Shown piece by piece: positions 7,331-58,066 of a DNA stretch of 64,000 nucleotides. Under the pieces are notes generated by a model, which was given only the letters and a program-made list of their open reading frames with translations, was not told the DNA's origin and did not search any database. Within the stretch, counting starts at the first letter, position 1; each line of letters begins with the position of its first letter. Origin of the DNA: Paratrimastix pyriformis (Eukaryota; Preaxostyla; Paratrimastigidae); contig JAPMOS010000012.1 of assembly GCA_027972325.1 (NCBI GenBank), positions 723,960-787,959 of the forward strand, in the 5' to 3' direction. Made by a program: the position numbers and the translations under genes.

Positions 7331-9453
7331 TCAATGAACGAAGAGCCACCGGAAATCGAACCGGTCCGGTTGGGCCCAGTGGGCCGCCAGGTCGGTGAAG
7401 TTCGGCCCGGGGGTCCAATCCACGGCCCACGAGAAGGGCGCCAGCCCGGCCCCGGGGTTGGCGGGGGGGCCTGAGACTGCGTAGAAGGAGCTCGACTTTG
7501 CCAGCTCGCCCGACAGCAGCACCCCGTCGATGGCCCCCCAGGGCTCCCGGCCCGGGGCCAGGTCGCCACGGGGGAAGAGGCCCGCCCGCGGGTCACCCTC
7601 GGCGATGGGATCGTGGGCGTAGTCGTTGCTCCGCAGGAATTCCTCCATGTCCTGCCGAGATGGGGCCGGGACAGGACGGCCCCCCCCCCCCCCCCCCAGC
7701 AGCCCGCACAGTCGCCGACGGGGAATGAGAAGTCGGCCCCAGGCCCAACGCGAAGAAGGGGCTGGGAGGAGGGACGGACCTGGATGTTGGCGACGGGCTG
7801 CACGTCGCGGGCCATGATCCGGGCCAGGGGCGCCCCGGCCCAGGTGTAGGGGGCCCCGTGGCGGGCCGCCATGGCCGCCTGGCCCGACCGGTTCTGGCTC
7901 TCGGGCCAGTAGGCCATCCCCACGGCCGGCCAGTAGCCGGGGCCGCCGGCCATCTGCTCCCACACGGGCCCGGCCGCGAGGAAGTCCCCCGGCAGCGACT
8001 CGGCCAGCAGCAGGGTCGCGTTGGGGGATCCCGTCCGGCCACCACTCACCAGGCTGTAGTCCAGCACCAACCACTGGCCCCCGGCCGTCCCTTTGGTGGC
8101 GGTTGATATGCACGATGGTCACGATGGTCACGATGGTCACGATGGTCACGATGATCATGGGCTGGGCTGGGCTGGGCTGGGCTGGGCTGGGCTGGTCTGG
8201 TCTGGTCTGGTCCGGTCTGGGCTGGGCTGGGCTGGGCTGGGCGGCCACGGACCTGTGGCGGGGGTGGTGAGGCCGAGGTACTGGACCCACTCGGTGGCCG
8301 ACCGGGCCAGGTGCGAGGCCACGGTGGCCCGGGCCCAGCCGGGCACCCCGGCGGGCGTGACCAGGGCCCGGAGATCGTCGGCGTAGAGGTCGACGGGCAC
8401 CCGGACGGCCGCCAGGCGCAGCCCGTCGTCGCTGGGCAGCAGGACGAAGTCTTCGCCTGCCCCCAGGGCGCCCGGGTACGACGGGTAGTGGAGCTCGTTG
8501 TACAGCGGGTCGCCGGGGTGGCTGTGCCGGTGGTGGGCGGCGGGCCCGTCGAGGGGCAGGTCGACCTCCTTCAGCACCCGCAGCATGTCGCTGTACGGCC
8601 GGATGGCGGCATAGCCCAGGTAGCACTCTCCAACCCCCGGCGCCAGCCGGACCAGGGCCCGGGAACGGGGCCGCAGCGTGGGGCGAGGGAAGGGCAGCCC
8701 CATGGCCGCGGCGGCGTCGACCAGGTCGGGGGTGGCGGCCAGGTGGTAGAGCTGCACCCGGGTCAAATTCCGGGCGGGGCTGCTGGCGGCGCCCTGGAAG
8801 CCCCGCACGAGCCCCTCAAACTGGGCGAGCGCGTAGCCCAGGTGCCGGCAGGCCCGTTCGGGGGCTGTCGTGCCGTTGCCGCAATGGGCGGCGCGCTGGC
8901 GGAGCCACTCCAGGTTGGCCCCCACCCACTGGGTCATCTCGGGGCTGGGCGTGGTCCCCGCAGCGGGGTCGTAGAGCCACGGGGCGAGAGACTGGTGCCG
9001 ATTCCAAATGGCATCGTACGTCAGGGCGCCCTCGAGGAACCCGGCCGCGAAGGCCTGGGCCTCCGGGGGACAATTCCGCTGGGAGGACTCGACATAGAAG
9101 CGCAACCAACCCGTCGCCAAGAGGGATGTGGTATTCTCCAATTCGGCCCAGGCGCACCCACTTGCGTCGTCCTCCACTCCCATTTGGAGGCTGAAGTGGG
9201 GTTCGTCAGTCGCCGAGTAGTACAAGGTGGCCGAGATGTAGGGCTCACTCAGCGCGAAAGTCAGTACAAAGACCAACGATATCGCGGTAACAATCAAAAT
9301 GATAAAGATGAGGATGAGGACCGCCACCCAGCAGCGTTTTCGGGGCGAGTCTGAGCGAATCCACCATCTGCAAGGTGGCATGCGTTCCTCGGCCGTCCCG
9401 AGTAACTCCGCTTGCTCTTCAAGATCCTTCTGTGATACCACAGTTTCCGCCAT
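7331..9453 (-). CDS. phospholipase B-like (PLBD/lamina-ancestor family) protein, membrane-anchored
   Basis: There are three exons: 9453-8253, 8090-7780 and 7651-7331. All junctions keep frame and give about 610 residues, close to animal PLBD2. The N-terminus is cytosolic and basic, with one hydrophobic segment (residues about 45-70), which suggests a type II signal anchor. Family hallmarks follow in order: AFAAGFLEGALTYDAIWNRH, DMLRVLKEVD, NELHYPSYPGALGAGEDFV, QWLVLDYSLV, VNPxxANIQ-like VQPVANIQ, NDYAHDPIAEGDPRAG, and a C-terminal WAVDWTPGPNF. The family comprises lysosomal N-terminal-nucleophile hydrolases of uncertain substrate. Aligned by eye, the nucleophile segment of PLBD proteins (CSALIK) reads SRALVR here, so the expected Cys is replaced. 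The HNTW motif downstream is also lost. The family call is firm; activity is doubtful. Confidence 0.9.
7652..7779 (-). other. intron 2 of the phospholipase B-like gene, with homopolymer G/C run
   Basis: The donor is GTCCGT and the acceptor is CGGCAG. It contains about 18 consecutive C on the plus strand (about 7680-7697), i.e. poly-G in the sense strand. This is opposite to most intronic runs in the window. Confidence 0.75.
8107..8240. repeat. intronic microsatellites (CGATGGTCA)n and (TGGGC)n
   Basis: They lie in intron 1 of the phospholipase B-like gene (8091-8252). A CGATGGTCA array is followed directly by a TGGGC pentamer array with some TGGTC variants. Confidence 0.9.
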
Positions 9454-9590
9454 GATTATGTTCCACTTTGAAGGGTTGTGTGCTCAGGCCAGCCAGCCGT
9501 CACGACTGGTAGATTAACGATTAGAACCCGATTGTGTGATATAGGCTAGCTCGATCGGTGATCCTATTTATCTCCAGTGAGGCCACCACG

Positions 9591-13491: not shown

Positions 13492-16217
13492 TTACGAGAG
13501 CGGATCGTACTCGGCTTCCTGGGGCTGGGGCTGGGGCTGGGGGGCCGGACGGGGCGCCGGCGGCTGGGCGGGGGCGGGGGCCGGGGAGGCCACCTGCCGA
13601 GAGGCCGGCCGGGGCGAGGGGCGGGGCGAGGGGGCCGGGGCGCCGCCACCGCCCAGCGGGTCGGCTTCCCCGGAGGCCGGTGCGGGTGCCGGTGCGGGCG
13701 AGGGGGCCTGGGGGGCAGCAGCCTGCTGGGGCGGGCGGCGGGGCCGCCTGAGGGAGGCCAGGGCCTCGGCGGCGGTGGCCGGGTTGGAGAGGCGCTCGTT
13801 CAAGTCGCACTCCTCCTGGAAGAGCTTCACCTGCCCGCACCCCCACCAGCCGCGGCGGCCCACCGAAAGGGCGCGTCAGGGGGCGATGGCAAAGAAGAGG
13901 ATGCGGGACCCGCTTGAGGCGGCCGCGGAGGGGGAGGCCAAGGGGCGGGGAGGCCAAGGGGCGGGGAGGCCAAGGGGCGGGGAGGCCAAGGGGCGGGGCG
14001 GCGGGCGGCGGGCGAGGGGCCGGACGGCCGGACGGACCAGCTTGAAGTAGCTGCGCTGGGTCTCGACCAGGCCCGTGTAGCGCTCCTCGAGGGCGTCGTG
14101 GCGGCGCTTCTCGTCGGCCTGGCGCTGCTCCATCCGGCCGGCCAGCTGCTGCACCTGGGCCGTGGCCGTCTGGAAGGACTCCAGCAGCGGCTTCTGCAGG
14201 TTGCGGCTCTTCAGGGCCGTCTCGAAGGTCCGCTGCAGCGACTGCAGCTGGCCCAGCTCGTTGGTCAGGTACCCCTTCCGGTCCAGCAGCGCGTTGTAGA
14301 CTGGGGGATGATGATGAGGACGGAGGGACGGTGGGTCAGGCCGGGGCTGCAGGAGGGGCCGGTGGCCGGGGTGCGGACAGTTGAAGTGCTTGCGGGTCTC
14401 CTCGAGGGTGGTGGCCATCCGGTCGAAGAGCTCCACGAAGCGGGTCTGGTACTGGATCAGCTCAGCCCGGGTGGGCACCTCGTCGATCTGGCGGCTCAGG
14501 GCGGCCGCCTCCCGGGTGCGCAGGGCCAGGGCGGCCCGCATCTGGGCCACCCGCTGGGTCTCCTGCTCCAGGGTGGCCCGCAGGGCGGCCGCGTTCTGGT
14601 CCTCGGCCCCGGCGGCCAGCTGGGCCTCGAGCTCCCCGATGCGGCCCTGCCAGGCGGCAAGCTGCTGGCGGCAGTGCTGCTTGAAGCGCCGCTCCTGCTC
14701 CCGGAAGCTGACCGCGGGGAGGTGGGGGAGGTGGGAGGGGGAGGGGGGGGGCACGATCAGATCAGGCCGCCGTGCTCCCGGTCAGCCACGGGGCGAGGGG
14801 AGGCGAGGGGAGGCGAGGGGAGGCGAGGGGAGGCGAGGGGAGGCGAGGGGAGGCGAGGGGAGGCGAGGGGATGGCGACCTCTCGTTGAGGCGCACCAGTT
14901 GGTGGAGGCGGCCCACGATGCGCTGGTCGGCCCCCTCCTCGGCCGCCTTGAGGCGCTCCAGGGTCTCCGTGAGCTGCTCCATCCGGGCCCGGTGCTCGGC
15001 CCGCGCCTGCTGGGCGGCTGTCAGGCGCCCCTGGCCGGCCTCAACCTATGCGCACCATCCGAGGGCCCGGTAATCAGCGATGCCAGGGCGGGGACGGGAC
15101 GGGGGAGGGGGGGGGACCTTCTGCTTGGACTGCTCCAGACGGCCCTGGAGGCCGGCCAGCTGCTTGGCGAGCAACTCCTGCTGCTGCCGCTGGGCCGCGA
15201 CGGCCGACTGGCGGGTGGCGGCTTCGCTCTGGCGCATCTGCTCGCCGTAGGCCTCGGCGGCGCGCCGGATGGCCTCCGTCTCGAGGGTCACCAGGGCCCC
15301 CACGCTCGAGGTGGACACCTTGCCCTCGGCGGCCCCCTCGCCCTGGACCATGCCGGCCATGAGGAGGGCGATGGTCTGCTCCTCCTGGGCCAGGGCCGCC
15401 TGGGCCTGCTCCTCGGCGTCCTTCTTGCGGGCCGCCGTGGCCTGCTCGCCCTCGGCGGCGCTGATCCGGTCCTGCATGGCGGCCGAGGGGCCCGCCCGCT
15501 GGGTGCTCTCGGCCCCGGCCTCGGCCCCGTCGAGGGTGAGGCGGGTCTGGCGGCCGTACTCGAGCAGGGTCGTCTGGATGTGGACGGTCTCCTCGGGCAG
15601 CCGGGCAAAGGGCTTGTGCTTGTACGCCCGCCGGGGGAAGTAGTTCTTCAGGACCCGCTCCACGAAGGGCCGCCCCAGCTCCTCGGGGCCGGCCGGGGCG
15701 CCCGCAGGGGCGGCGAAGCACTTGCCGAACTGGGCCTCGGCGTTCTGGCGGATGTTGCGCGCCTCGGCCGAGCGGAACTCAAAGGCCCGCTTCACGAGCC
15801 ACTGGATGACCGGGTAGAGCTTGGGGTAGTCAAGACCCTGAATCTGCGAGGGCTGAATTTTCAGGGGGCACTTGGAGAGTCGAAGACCCTCGATGATGTT
15901 TTCCGCAATTTTACTGGACAAGGAGTTTCGAAAAAAGCTCGAGATGGGGGAATAGTGGGGAAAAAAAACACGGACATTTTCTCACCAATCTTGGGGTTCT
16001 CTTGGAAAGACACGTCAAAATCGACATCGACATTGGAGGCAGTGATGCACCATGCCATACCACCAACAACCTAGTGGCGATGTTCAGCTGTGAGTCAAAC
16101 AAGTCGGAGAAAGCGCACCTTATCAAAGGGCGACAAGGCCGGAATGCGGGCCCGGAAATAACCTGCCGAGACCAAGAGCTCCACGATCTTTTCAAATACT
16201 TCTGTCGCTTCAGCCAT
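13492..16217 (-). CDS. CCDC93: CCDC93, CCC-complex subunit
   Basis: Seven exons are resolved: 16217-16119, 16070-15976, 15913-15118, 15045-14879, 14707-14379, 14300-14038 and 13830-13492. They sum to about 695 residues (human CCDC93 is about 631). The N-terminal CH-like domain is intact: SAGYFRARIPALSPFDK, VVGGMAWCITASNVDVDFDV and QIQGLDYPKLYPVIQWLVKR. Next come RRAYKHKPFA..HIQTTLLEYGR and a long coiled coil with NALLDRKGYLTNELGQLQ and RTFETALKSRN. The human protein acts with CCDC22 and COMMD proteins in the CCC complex that supports Retriever-dependent endosomal recycling. The C-terminal 70 residues are Pro/Ala/Gln-rich and lineage-specific. Introns contain a (AGGCGAGGGG)n array and poly-C runs. 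The TIR element lies 120 bp upstream of the start codon. Confidence 0.92.
14787..14872. repeat. (AGGCGAGGGG)n array, about 8 copies, intronic
   Basis: A decamer array in the fourth intron of the CCDC93 gene. Confidence 0.85.
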
Positions 16218-54389: not shown

Positions 54390-55663
54390 TCAGGAGCTTG
54401 TGGAGGACGGGGGAGCAGGAGCTGACGGTCCCACGTCGCTTCGAGGAGCAACAATCAACACGGGAGCTTGAGGGTAAAATCCGAGAGAGCGGAGCGTTTG
54501 TGGGTAGTCGGCCTCCGAAAAAGAACGCCGTGGGAATGGAGTCGACAAGGAAAATGAGGCAGGTGGGTACTCCTTGCTTTCTAAAAAATCCACAACGTGT
54601 TGCAGGAGATGGTCAGGGGCAAAACGCCGTTCAAGGAGTTCGCCAGCTGGCAATCGGATGCGAATACGCACTGAGTCGGATTCCGGTGGTTCTGGGGGCA
54701 GATCACGGATAAGACGCTGCCGTCGCATCTCGACGGCCTGCACAACAACAAGAGGTTGAGCCAGAACGGGGGAGTGGAGGGGCTACTCAGCGGGTGGGTG
54801 GGGTGGGGTGGGGTGGGGTGGGGGTGGGGGTGGGGGTGGGGGGGGGGGGGGGGCTGCAAACCTCGTTGGCACTCTGTTCGATCGCATCCTGCATTTCTTT
54901 TCGTTCGCGTTCTTCCTCTGCCTGCCGTCGAGCGGCTTCCTGACTCTCCAGCTACCGAGGAAACAGCGCCAACATTTCGAGACGAGACATAAGAGCGGCA
55001 GACCCTCGCCTGGTCTTCGGCCAACGCAGCCTGATATTCACGGTCTTGGTCCTGACGAAGCTGTCGCGCTTCGTCACGCTCGTCGCTTAAGAAAGATGTG
55101 GGAAACCAGAAAGCTCCGTTAGCTGACAGACCGTTCGGTATTCACGGCAGCCAGAGCGGCCTGTCTGACAGCGATGGAATTGGAGATCCGCGTGATCAAC
55201 TCCTGGGGTCGGAGGAAACCTGAAATGGTGTCGATGACGGTCGGGTGGGGTTGTCCCGGCTCAACGAGAGCAAGAAACGGGAAGCCGGCCGCTCGCAATT
55301 CCTGCGAGAGCAAATAGCCCTCCTTTTGGTGGATGGAACATCCCCAGAGAAGAAGTCGTTCATCAAAGAAAGAAATCACCGAATCGGAGGCGAGAGTCTC
55401 TCTATGTCGTCGGAGTGAGGAGTGAGCGGTGTTCCCGCGAAAATAGAGGCAACAAACTTGCAAAATTGCTCGGTGGAAGCATGCGATGGTGAAAGAAGGA
55501 AAATCGCTAGGAAACGGGACTGGTCCCGGGCCTGCTGGAGAGCGTCGAGATGAGTCCCACCGAGAAAGCGCGGGTGGCGTTCCCCAAAGGAGTGTCTATA
55601 AAACTCTGTGAATGTCTGTCCAGCTCCAGGTGGAGCAAAGAGGCGTTTGAGAGCCTTCAGCAT
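54390..55663 (-). CDS. UBXD8/FAF2-like protein (UAS + coiled coil + UBX)
   Basis: It starts at MLKALKRLFAPP. The UAS (thioredoxin-like) domain reads FYRHSFGERHPRFLGGTHLD, ALQQARDQSRFLAIFLLSPS and FCKETLASDSVISFFDERLL (across a GTTTGT intron), then LWGCSIHQKEGYLLSQELRA and GFPFLALVEPG. A Glu/Arg/Gln coiled coil follows. The UBX domain is SVRIRIRLPAGELLERRFAP, LQHVVDFLESKEYPP, TPFPRRSFSEADYPQTLRSL and GFYPQAPVLIVAP, including the FPR loop typical of p97/Cdc48 binding. The architecture matches FAF2/UBXD8 of ER-associated degradation. The N-terminal UBA domain and the hairpin membrane anchor of animal UBXD8 are not visible before the UAS domain, so the start may be downstream of a missing exon, or the protein may be shorter. 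It diverges from the CBM20-HECT gene with a 170-bp intergenic gap. Confidence 0.88.
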
Positions 55664-55832: not shown

Positions 55833-58066
55833 ATGCTTGTTAATTTTTCGGTGCGCTATCGCACATGCTGGGGTCAAACCCTATGCGTTGTAGGCTCCTG
55901 CCCAGAGCTGGGAAACTGGAATCCCTTTCGTGCATATGCTCTTACCTTTGAGGAGTACGAATTTTGGGCTGGTACAGTTTCCCTCTCTTCGTCCATCTCC
56001 CGACTGGAATATAAGTATTGCATCCGCACTGATGCTGGTGCAGTCCTTTGGGAGGATTCTCGCAATCGAGTTCTCGAGTTGCCGCCTCCAAGAATTTTGG
56101 ATCTTTCCGCGGTTCTTTCCCTGGCCGACCTGTGGAACCAGGCGTGCACTCGTTCATTGGCGGATCCGGTGTGCCTCCTCCGGCCGGAACCGGCGGAGAT
56201 GGCTAGTTGGGAGTTGAGAATCCCGCAGAGCAATTATTGTCTTCGATCGACACGCTTTGTTGATTCGAAACCGTGTCTTTACCCTCGTGTGCCGTACACC
56301 ATCAACAGGGCCACCATTCTGTCGGATTCGTTTGATGTCTGTCCCGTCCTCAGAGTCGCAGCCATGCTATTTTTGGGAATATAGTCACTCCAATCAGCAC
56401 CGAACATCTCGATCACCTTTTACGGAGAACCTGGCATTGATTGTGGAGGAGTCCGCAGAGAATGGCCAGTTCGCCCCCCCCCCCCCCCCCCATCGCCATC
56501 GCCATCGCCATCCCCATCCCCATCGCCATCGCCATCGCCATCGCCATCCCCATCCCCATCCCCATCCCCATCCCCATCCCCATCCCCATCCCCATCCCCA
56601 TCCCCATCCCAATCTCCACCACCGACCCGCGCTAGCCCACCTCTGAACATCACTCTTCCCCCTCGCACTCGCCTAGGTTTTCATTGCTCTCCCAGCAGCT
56701 CTTCAGTGACGTGCTGGGACTCTTCCGATCCTCCTCAGCCGGGGCACTGACGACGACGGAAGTTGTGGAGATGACCCGACAGTTGTCATCCGATCCGCTG
56801 CGGACTCGATATGACTTTCGGGGCGGTGCGCTCCCCAGTTGGGATGCAGGGGTCTTTTTTGCGGGCGATCCGCTACCCTGGTTTCGTTTTGTTGGTCGCT
56901 TTATGGCGATTGCTCTTTGTGGTCGAGGCCTCCTCCCGTCGCGAATCGCTCTCTCCGTGCTGAAATACATTCTGGATGAGCCCTTGGGGGTGGCCGACCT
57001 TGTCCGAGATGCCCCCGAGTCCCTGGCGTTGGTCTGCGGCTGCACACATCTCTTCCAATTGTCTGGGGCAGGTTTCGTTTATTCTCAGGCAGAACCTGGA
57101 CGACCCCGCCGTTGCAATCGACGACTCGATTCACATGAGCGTTGACGAGGAGTACCTTGTGAGCACCCGGCTTCCATCTGCGGATCAACAGCAGCAGATC
57201 CAGCTCCCCGCTGTACCCGAACCTTGGCAGAGTTCCCTTGAGGCGGTCCGTAGCCGGTATTGTCAGGGAATTGGCCTAGCCCGATTCCATCGCACCACTG
57301 TCCTTGTCCCGAATGGAGATCAAGTACAGATCACAGAGGCCAACAAAGCCGAGTCTGCTGCTTTCACTTCGGGATGACTCTGATCGATCCACCAGGTTTT
57401 TGTGCCGACTTGTCCGATACCGCCTGGTCGATTCGATCCGAGAGTCGTTGGAGGCCATCAAAAGTGGGTTTTTTGAGGTCAGTCCCACCCCACTCCCAGC
57501 AGCGACTCACGCTCCATTTCATGCGGACAGGTCATCCAGCCATCCGATCTGAGGCGTTCCCGGTTGGACGCAGCCACAATATTCATGATGCTTTTTGGAG
57601 CTTCGTCAGTCTCGCTGGCCGAATGGCGGGTTGGGATCGACACGTATCCGTACGACCAGGGAAGCGTCTACATCTCTTGGTTCTGGCGATTTCTTGAAGA
57701 GTGCACTGACGAACAGCGGTCCAAGCTGCTCTGGTTCGTTACGGGGACTTCGGTCCAGCCCGCTGGCGGACTCTTGACCCTGGTTCCTCGGTTTACCGTT
57801 GTTGTGTCTGCAAGGTTGATTTAGCCGCTCACACCTCACTTGATCCACAATAGAGATTATCGGGAGAATTGTTTGCCCTCTGCGTCGACATGCAGGTCTG
57901 TTCTGCTCGTCTTTGCGATTCAAACGGAAGGGAAAACGCCACTTTTCGTCCCCCACGCACCCACAGCAATCAGCTGCGCCTGCCCCATTACAGCCGCTAC
58001 GAACTTCTCAAACGATACATGCTCCTGGCGTTGACAGATTGGACCCAAGGATTTGGCTTAGGTTAA
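55833..58066 (+). CDS. CBM20 starch-binding domain fused to HECT E3 ubiquitin ligase
   Basis: Eight exons join in frame: 55833-56336, 56385-56468, 56636-57031, 57072-57352, 57396-57477, 57531-57814, 57854-57895 and 57967-58066. They give about 590 residues. Residues 3-105 are a CBM20: VNFSVRYRTCWGQTLCVVGS, CPELGNWNPFRAYAL, EFWAGTVSLS, RLEYKYCIRTDAG and VLWEDSRNRVLELP. From about residue 150 a complete HECT domain follows: NISITFYGEPGIDCGGVRRE, PWFRFVGRFMAIALCGRGLL, VQITEANKAEFLCRLVRYRL, RESLEAIKSGFFEVIQP, SVYISWFWRFLEECTDEQRS and LLWFVTGTSVQPAGG. The catalytic cysteine is about residue 557 in LPSASTCSNQLRLPHY, which spans an intron. The end is TQGFGLG. HECT ligases transfer ubiquitin through this cysteine; CBM20 binds alpha-glucans. 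The fusion implies ubiquitination directed to starch- or glycogen-associated proteins (inference). Confidence 0.9.
56485..56614. repeat. poly-C plus (CCATCG)/(CCCATC) hexamers, intronic
   Basis: Fills most of the second intron (56469-56635) of the CBM20-HECT gene. Confidence 0.9.

Follow-up and report, generated by a model that had tools for sequence, protein, structure and literature searches.

How ubiquitin controls glycogen has come under study only recently, through the laforin-malin pair, HOIL-1, the CBM20 of RNF213 and ubiquitylated liver glycogen. In animals, laforin recruits a separate protein, malin, which is found with glycogen only in the presence of laforin (PMC9844227). For this pair, the statement of an earlier note on the locus studied here, that glycogen-linked ubiquitination uses two proteins, holds, but it does not extend to RNF213, an E3 that itself carries a CBM20 (PMC11549300; RNF213 with its CBM20 and glycogen is also treated in PMC12203941). 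Joining a CBM20 and E3 activity in one chain is thus not unprecedented, animal RNF213 being the precedent, and motifs for the binding of complex sugars have been described as abundant in HECT ligases (PMC4327156).

We analyzed a predicted gene of the protist Paratrimastix pyriformis in which a CBM20 is directly followed by a HECT domain. A natural fusion of a glucan binder with an E3 in such a distant eukaryote would be an independent sign from evolution that E3 activity belongs at glucan, and a CBM20-HECT protein would offer a compact single-chain enzyme for asking whether particle proteins or the glucan itself are modified. Our search of the open-access literature, judged by titles and abstract openings, returned no description of a CBM20-HECT protein; on this scope, the architecture cannot be called undescribed with proof.

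Gene model and domains of the CBM20-HECT protein

The gene lies in the window, a 64,000-nucleotide stretch of contig JAPMOS010000012.1, and its features, numbered from the first letter of the window, are as follows.

55833-58066, plus strand: CBM20-HECT gene, eight exons, 1785-nt CDS, 594 aa, stop codon TAA at 58064-58066
55833-56336, plus strand: exon 1, with the start codon, CBM20, linker and first HECT N-lobe strand in one open frame
55839-56084, plus strand: CBM20 domain, aa 3-84, Pfam CBM_20 at 7e-20
56085-56279, plus strand: linker, aa 85-149, helical at aa 91-109 by prediction, confidence low past about aa 110
56385-56468, plus strand: exon 2 (ISITFYGEPGIDCGGVRREW), possibly ending at 56464 (GC-AG version of intron 2)
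56469-56635, plus strand: intron 2, made up of a C run and CCCATC/GCCATC repeats; bounds 56465-56676 in the alternative model
56636-57060, plus strand: exon 3, HECT N-lobe, starting at 56677 in the alternative model
57089-57352, plus strand: exon 4, HECT
57396-57477, plus strand: exon 5, HECT
57531-57814, plus strand: exon 6, HECT as far as the start of the C-lobe
57854-57895, plus strand: exon 7, in which TGC at 57891-57893 encodes the catalytic cysteine (Cys561, or Cys546 with the GC-AG intron 2)
57967-58066, plus strand: exon 8, last part of the C-lobe, ending in TQGFGLG (Phe at -4) and the TAA stop codon

The earlier note had proposed a frame-consistent gene of eight exons, and splicing these exons reproduced its coding sequence, including the 56336/56385 and 56468/56636 junctions. 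All introns are GT-AG (48, 167, 28, 43, 53, 39 and 71 nt), no frameshift is required, and the protein has an estimated mass of about 65 kDa; the gene is presumably spliced and expressed in this form. The boundaries of intron 2 allow a second model, in which a GC-AG intron (56465-56676) would eliminate a 15-aa insert, producing a 579-aa protein that reads VRREWFSLLSQQLF, with a cleaner REWFSLLSQQLF. The Pfam scores of the two models are nearly equal (167.7 vs 167.8 bits), so that the profile cannot choose between them.

The CBM20 proved intact, as had been claimed, with the motifs GNW, EFWAGTV, EYKY and WEDSRNR and the Pfam match given above. Mapping the binding-site residues through a PDB sequence alignment onto the A. 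niger CBM20 (1ac0), we found that the Trp-Lys-Trp set of starch site 1 is kept (W29, K61 and W73, equivalent to W543, K578 and W590), as are the aromatic residues of site 2 (W13, Y42 and W45, equivalent to Y527, Y556 and W563). The functional roles of these site-1 and site-2 positions are described in PMC9920598, in which one potato DPE2 domain likewise has a tryptophan at the Tyr527 position. Sequence matches of the CBM20 part in the PDB (49 sequences up to E 0.1) were glucoamylase, amylase and CGTase chains, together with human GPCPD1 (labelled phosphodiesterase 5 in the PDB) and STBD1.

An AlphaFold2 model of exon 1, built from a 26-row alignment (the window, 6 rows from the same genome and 19 bacterial rows), had block means of 93-98 over aa 1-80 and a mean pLDDT of 74.7, with confidence below 50 at residues 113-119 and 125-158. 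Foldseek matched this model to glucoamylase 2vn4 at 4.5e-8 and to the STBD1 CBM20 at 5.9e-6, and the best 50 of 53 matches at E 0.001 included CBM20 structures of glucoamylase, GPCPD1 (KIAA1434), STBD1 with maltotetraose and the phosphatase 4rkk, which we take to be laforin. Both the family profile and the predicted beta-sandwich fold place the domain in CBM20, and this module would be expected to bind glucan.

The HECT domain is likewise complete, in agreement with the earlier reading that it includes a catalytic cysteine in STCSNQL. In the spliced protein, Pfam HECT covers aa 213-593 of 594 at 6.4e-49, spanning profile positions 2-305 of 306, and at a limit of E 10, where HMMER filters nonetheless discard most matches above about 0.1, Pfam detected nothing beyond CBM_20 and HECT. 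The catalytic cysteine lies within LPSASTCSNQLRLPHY, aligned to LPRSHTCFNRLDLPPY of ITCH, and sits, as Cys561, in the C-lobe stretch STCSNQLRLPHY; the LP.Y motif is kept, and the protein ends in GFGLG, with Phe at -4. A phenylalanine at this position is a functional feature of HECT ligases. The top PDB sequence matches of the HECT part, obtained with a provisional model and among the best 60 of 75 sequences, were ITCH, WWP1/2 and HUWE1. With a full C-terminal HECT that retains both the catalytic cysteine and the -4 phenylalanine, the protein reads as a HECT-type E3 and probably has ligase activity.

Continuity of the two domains in exon 1

The strongest indication of a single protein comes from exon 1, a single stop-free frame in which the CBM20 is followed by YPRVPYTINRATILSDSFD (56280-56336), where the HECT N-lobe begins. 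Against TOM1, ITCH and WWP2, whose first N-lobe strand it matches, this 19-mer scored 99; the runner-up among 1198 ORFs of the window scored 61, and shuffling the exon-1 protein 20,000 times never gave 99 (top shuffle, 95). Because the CBM20 and the HECT start share the exon-1 frame, the fusion does not depend on splicing: as read from the sequence, the two domains touch within one exon, and the fusion reported in the earlier note is confirmed at this level. A chance motif match was considered and rejected on the basis of the E-values and the single open frame; a secreted enzyme was rejected as well, the N-terminus lacking, as judged by eye, a signal-like stretch.

Searches with phmmer against the PDB gave a mixed picture of the exon-1 tail. 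The 46-aa tail alone had no match up to E 10. Added to a query of exons 2-3, it raised, among others, the scores of ITCH (3tug, 25.4 to 31.9 bits), WWP1 (1nd7, 25.7 to 30.9), NEDD4 (5c91, 32.1 to 34.2) and TOM1 (9cmr, 34.9 to 38.9) and lowered those of HUWE1 (3g1n, 28.6 to 26.9), SMURF2 (1zvd, 28.0 to 26.1), E6AP (1c4z, 23.8 to 21.9) and NEDD4L (5hpk, 30.8 to 29.5). When the genome's 12 remaining HECT loci were searched for the YPRVPYTINRATILSDSFD stretch as a motif, one (L027) had it, which makes the paralogues unusable for comparison.

Base composition provided no clear coding signal setting the exons apart: GC by codon position was 0.533/0.489/0.467 in the CBM20 part, 0.538/0.513/0.628 in the linker and HECT start and 0.602/0.468/0.614 in the remainder, with overall values of 0.595 for introns and 0.551 for the CDS. 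At third positions, the CBM20 part (55833-56102) has a GC of 0.467, below the 0.61-0.63 of the remaining gene; this difference may reflect a separate origin or be due to chance.

A divergently oriented gene lies immediately upstream.

54390-55663, minus strand: UBX-domain neighbour, UBX at 2.7e-17 and FAF1 at 0.021 (below cut-off), two separate frames, unspliced

We take the two frames to be one gene. The first Met of its upstream frame, on the opposite strand, and the CBM20-HECT start are separated by about 169 bp, and this proximity leaves little room for a longer N-terminus of the CBM20-HECT protein. The UBX gene and the CBM20-HECT gene, both belonging to the ubiquitin pathway, may share a promoter region.

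These data bear on whether the locus encodes one protein at all, as opposed to two genes, a HECT-only product, a pseudogene or an assembly artefact. Met123 lies inside exon 1, and its use as a start, which is possible, would yield a protein with the HECT part only. Intron 2 is filled with repeats and forms the one ambiguous junction, and base composition is uninformative. Against this stand the presence of both domains in exon 1 with no stop between them, a gene model without any frameshift, the kept catalytic and binding residues and the divergent gene immediately upstream, and we regard the absence of a single protein as highly improbable.

Genomic context and the glucan-related gene repertoire

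The genome was searched exon by exon in its 56.06-Mb assembly of 495 contigs, and all counts are lower bounds. HECT matches amounted to at least 28 rows in at least 13 clusters and CBM20 matches to at least 8 rows in at least 7 clusters. The two domains are close only at the locus in the window, with 1480 bases between the matches, that is, in one fusion; contig C2 has both, 303 kb apart, and this search gave no HECT match on five CBM20 contigs. The genome encodes a GT3 glycogen synthase, a GT5 match and a phosphorylase, and with the synthase and the phosphorylase present, glucan should be available to bind.

The other CBM20 loci have diverse partners. At L012/L040 (C135) and L010/L039 (C452), GDPD and GH77 frames lie just downstream on the same strand; in an unspliced reading, we take these frames to belong to the same genes as their CBM20s, which by the order of frames would make the loci GPCPD1-like and DPE2-like. 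On contig C2 (L038:2966-4543, plus strand), a CBM20 is located upstream of a phosphatase-like frame, with HCHAG followed by TGRTG across a short intron. Read by eye, this would be a laforin-like order with a protein-phosphatase-like signature; Pfam found no phosphatase family in the frames scanned at this locus, and we do not claim laforin orthology. In two further CBM20 loci, each scanned with Pfam in one frame, only the CBM20 was seen.

Elsewhere in the window lie two ordinary eukaryotic neighbours, phospholipase B and CCDC93 (8158-9483 and 13879-15981, both on the minus strand); genes such as CCDC93, like the introns, show the genome to be eukaryotic. Scans with exon 1 gave no relatives among viral contigs, a collection not meant to hold eukaryotes, and, among prokaryote genomes, where eukaryotes are not intended either, one bacterial tandem-CBM20 frame (L017, 908 aa) with no sign of fusion; given the scope of these collections, the absence of relatives says little.

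Proposed function and comparison with known systems

We give about an even chance to the proposal that this is a single-chain E3 of the protist, in which the CBM20 docks on cytosolic glucan and the HECT ubiquitinates particle proteins. The N-terminal CBM20 would hold the enzyme on cytosolic alpha-1,4-glucan, in glycogen-like particles; the catalytic cysteine of the HECT would receive ubiquitin from an E2 and transfer it to proteins at the particle or in its vicinity, for example, glucan-metabolising enzymes; and the ubiquitinated proteins would then be removed or altered in activity. One chain would thereby do the job of laforin, with its CBM20, and malin, the E3. Such a location and such substrates are what we infer for the ligase, and the idea of the earlier note, that ubiquitin could be targeted to alpha-glucan particles or their enzymes, is plausible.

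By analogy with laforin-malin, anchoring of the HECT to particle proteins through the glucan-bound CBM20 is the best-supported reading; in animals, malin accompanies glycogen only if laforin is present. We count in its favour the strength of both domains, the one frame that joins them, the kept site and catalytic residues, the confident CBM20 model with its matches to STBD1 and other CBM20 structures, the glycogen enzymes and the CBM20 frames that adjoin GH77 and GDPD frames at other loci. In RNF213, point mutants of predicted sugar-binding residues showed unchanged recruitment, a result that its authors call ambiguous (PMC11549300), and by this result the presence of a CBM20 is no proof of a sugar-directed function. 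RNF213, which has a CBM20, coats intracellular pathogens (PMC11549300), and the fusion might similarly recognize foreign or ingested carbohydrate, from bacterial prey or escaped food material. This we consider very unlikely: the CBM20 site residues of the fusion match those of alpha-glucan binders, and RNF213 is not a HECT, while the ligand of its CBM20 is unproven.

Control of HECT ligases by N-terminal modules is known, and the CBM20 of the fusion lies close to the N-lobe, the linker between them being modelled as helical in part. Sugar on the CBM20 could accordingly switch the HECT on or off, with substrates elsewhere; simple anchoring fits these features equally well, and we assign such a sensor a decidedly low probability.

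The glucan itself could be the substrate, if the CBM20 presented a glucan chain to the HECT thioester and a glucose hydroxyl were esterified. In vitro, the RBR ligase HOIL-1 attaches ubiquitin to the C6 hydroxyl of glucosaccharides, maltoheptaose and glycogen being acceptors, and the partners that bind glucan have been proposed to target it (PMC9016349). A 2026 review (PMC13270118) reports ubiquitylated glycogen in mouse liver and ubiquitylation of small-molecule amines by HUWE1, a HECT. The same genome also has a CBM20 and a USP-like tail in one frame, in a protein that could remove such a ubiquitin mark.

L036:6577-8458 (contig C463), minus strand: tandem-CBM20 gene, CBM20s at 8e-13 and 2e-6

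In this gene, the frame of the second CBM20 continues into a USP-like C-terminal half. Pfam UCH scored 6.4e-4 on a 219-aa piece (19.8 bits against a cut-off of 23.9, profile positions 197-254 of 254), 8.7e-4 on a 371-aa piece, 0.0032 on the complete frame of 610 aa and 0.25 on a shortened frame of 583 aa. Of 4044 background ORFs, 2 matched its His box, FRLWAVVLHTGSPSEGHFF, both of them from USP loci, and 10, 18 and 7 equalled its Cys-box, QQDA and WY stretches, respectively, true USPs included; AYLLLY occurs near the end of the frame, and BLASTP gave a 19-residue match at E 0.005 for one comparison. The tail had no PDB or NCBIfam match and is absent from the UCH list of the genome at E 0.001, its AlphaFold2 model has a mean pLDDT of 35, and the fold search gave meaningless matches. 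A glucan-bound deubiquitinase, that is, an eraser, is possible but a weakly supported lead. Across the genome, many contigs also have UCH matches confined to profile positions of about 197-254, a pattern that would fit a repeated element carrying a USP-like C-terminal part.

We found no HECT that esterifies a sugar hydroxyl in the literature examined, the HECT of the fusion has ordinary family features, and the USP assignment on C463 is below the Pfam cut-off; direct ubiquitylation of glucan is, in our view, unlikely. Quite unlikely, too, is a full glucan-ubiquitin circuit in this protist, in which the CBM20-HECT writer would esterify glycogen-like glucan and the tandem-CBM20 USP-like protein would erase the mark, having evolved apart from laforin-malin and HOIL-1.

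Returning to the anchoring reading, the closest parallel is laforin-malin, where a CBM20 also brings an E3 to glycogen (PMC9844227). That system consists of two proteins, laforin, a carbohydrate-binding module plus phosphatase, and malin, a TRIM-like E3 with NHL repeats, whereas the fusion is one chain, its E3 is a HECT, and Pfam lists no phosphatase family in it, as opposed to the CBM20 followed by a dual-specificity phosphatase that defines laforin. RNF213 resembles the fusion in carrying a CBM20 and ubiquitin ligase activity in one polypeptide (PMC11549300), but it is a giant AAA+/RZ-finger innate-immunity ligase, not a HECT, with an unproven CBM20 ligand; in place of an AAA+ ring and RING/RZ module, Pfam finds only CBM_20 and HECT in the fusion. 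HOIL-1/LUBAC shares with a HECT the thioester-forming E3 chemistry, acts on alpha-glucans and has partner subunits that bind glucan (PMC9016349). It differs in its RBR fold, the fusion having CBM_20 and HECT and no RING-IBR-RING in Pfam, and in that glucan is bound by HOIP and Sharpin, not by HOIL-1. STBD1 and GPCPD1 share the CBM20 fold, their solved CBM20s matching both the sequence and the model of the fusion. To our knowledge, neither contains a HECT. The NEDD4 and TOM1/HUWE1 classes have a full HECT like that of the fusion, and TOM1 matches its N-lobe start; relative to these ligases, the CBM20 of the predicted protein replaces the targeting module, with no other Pfam domain.
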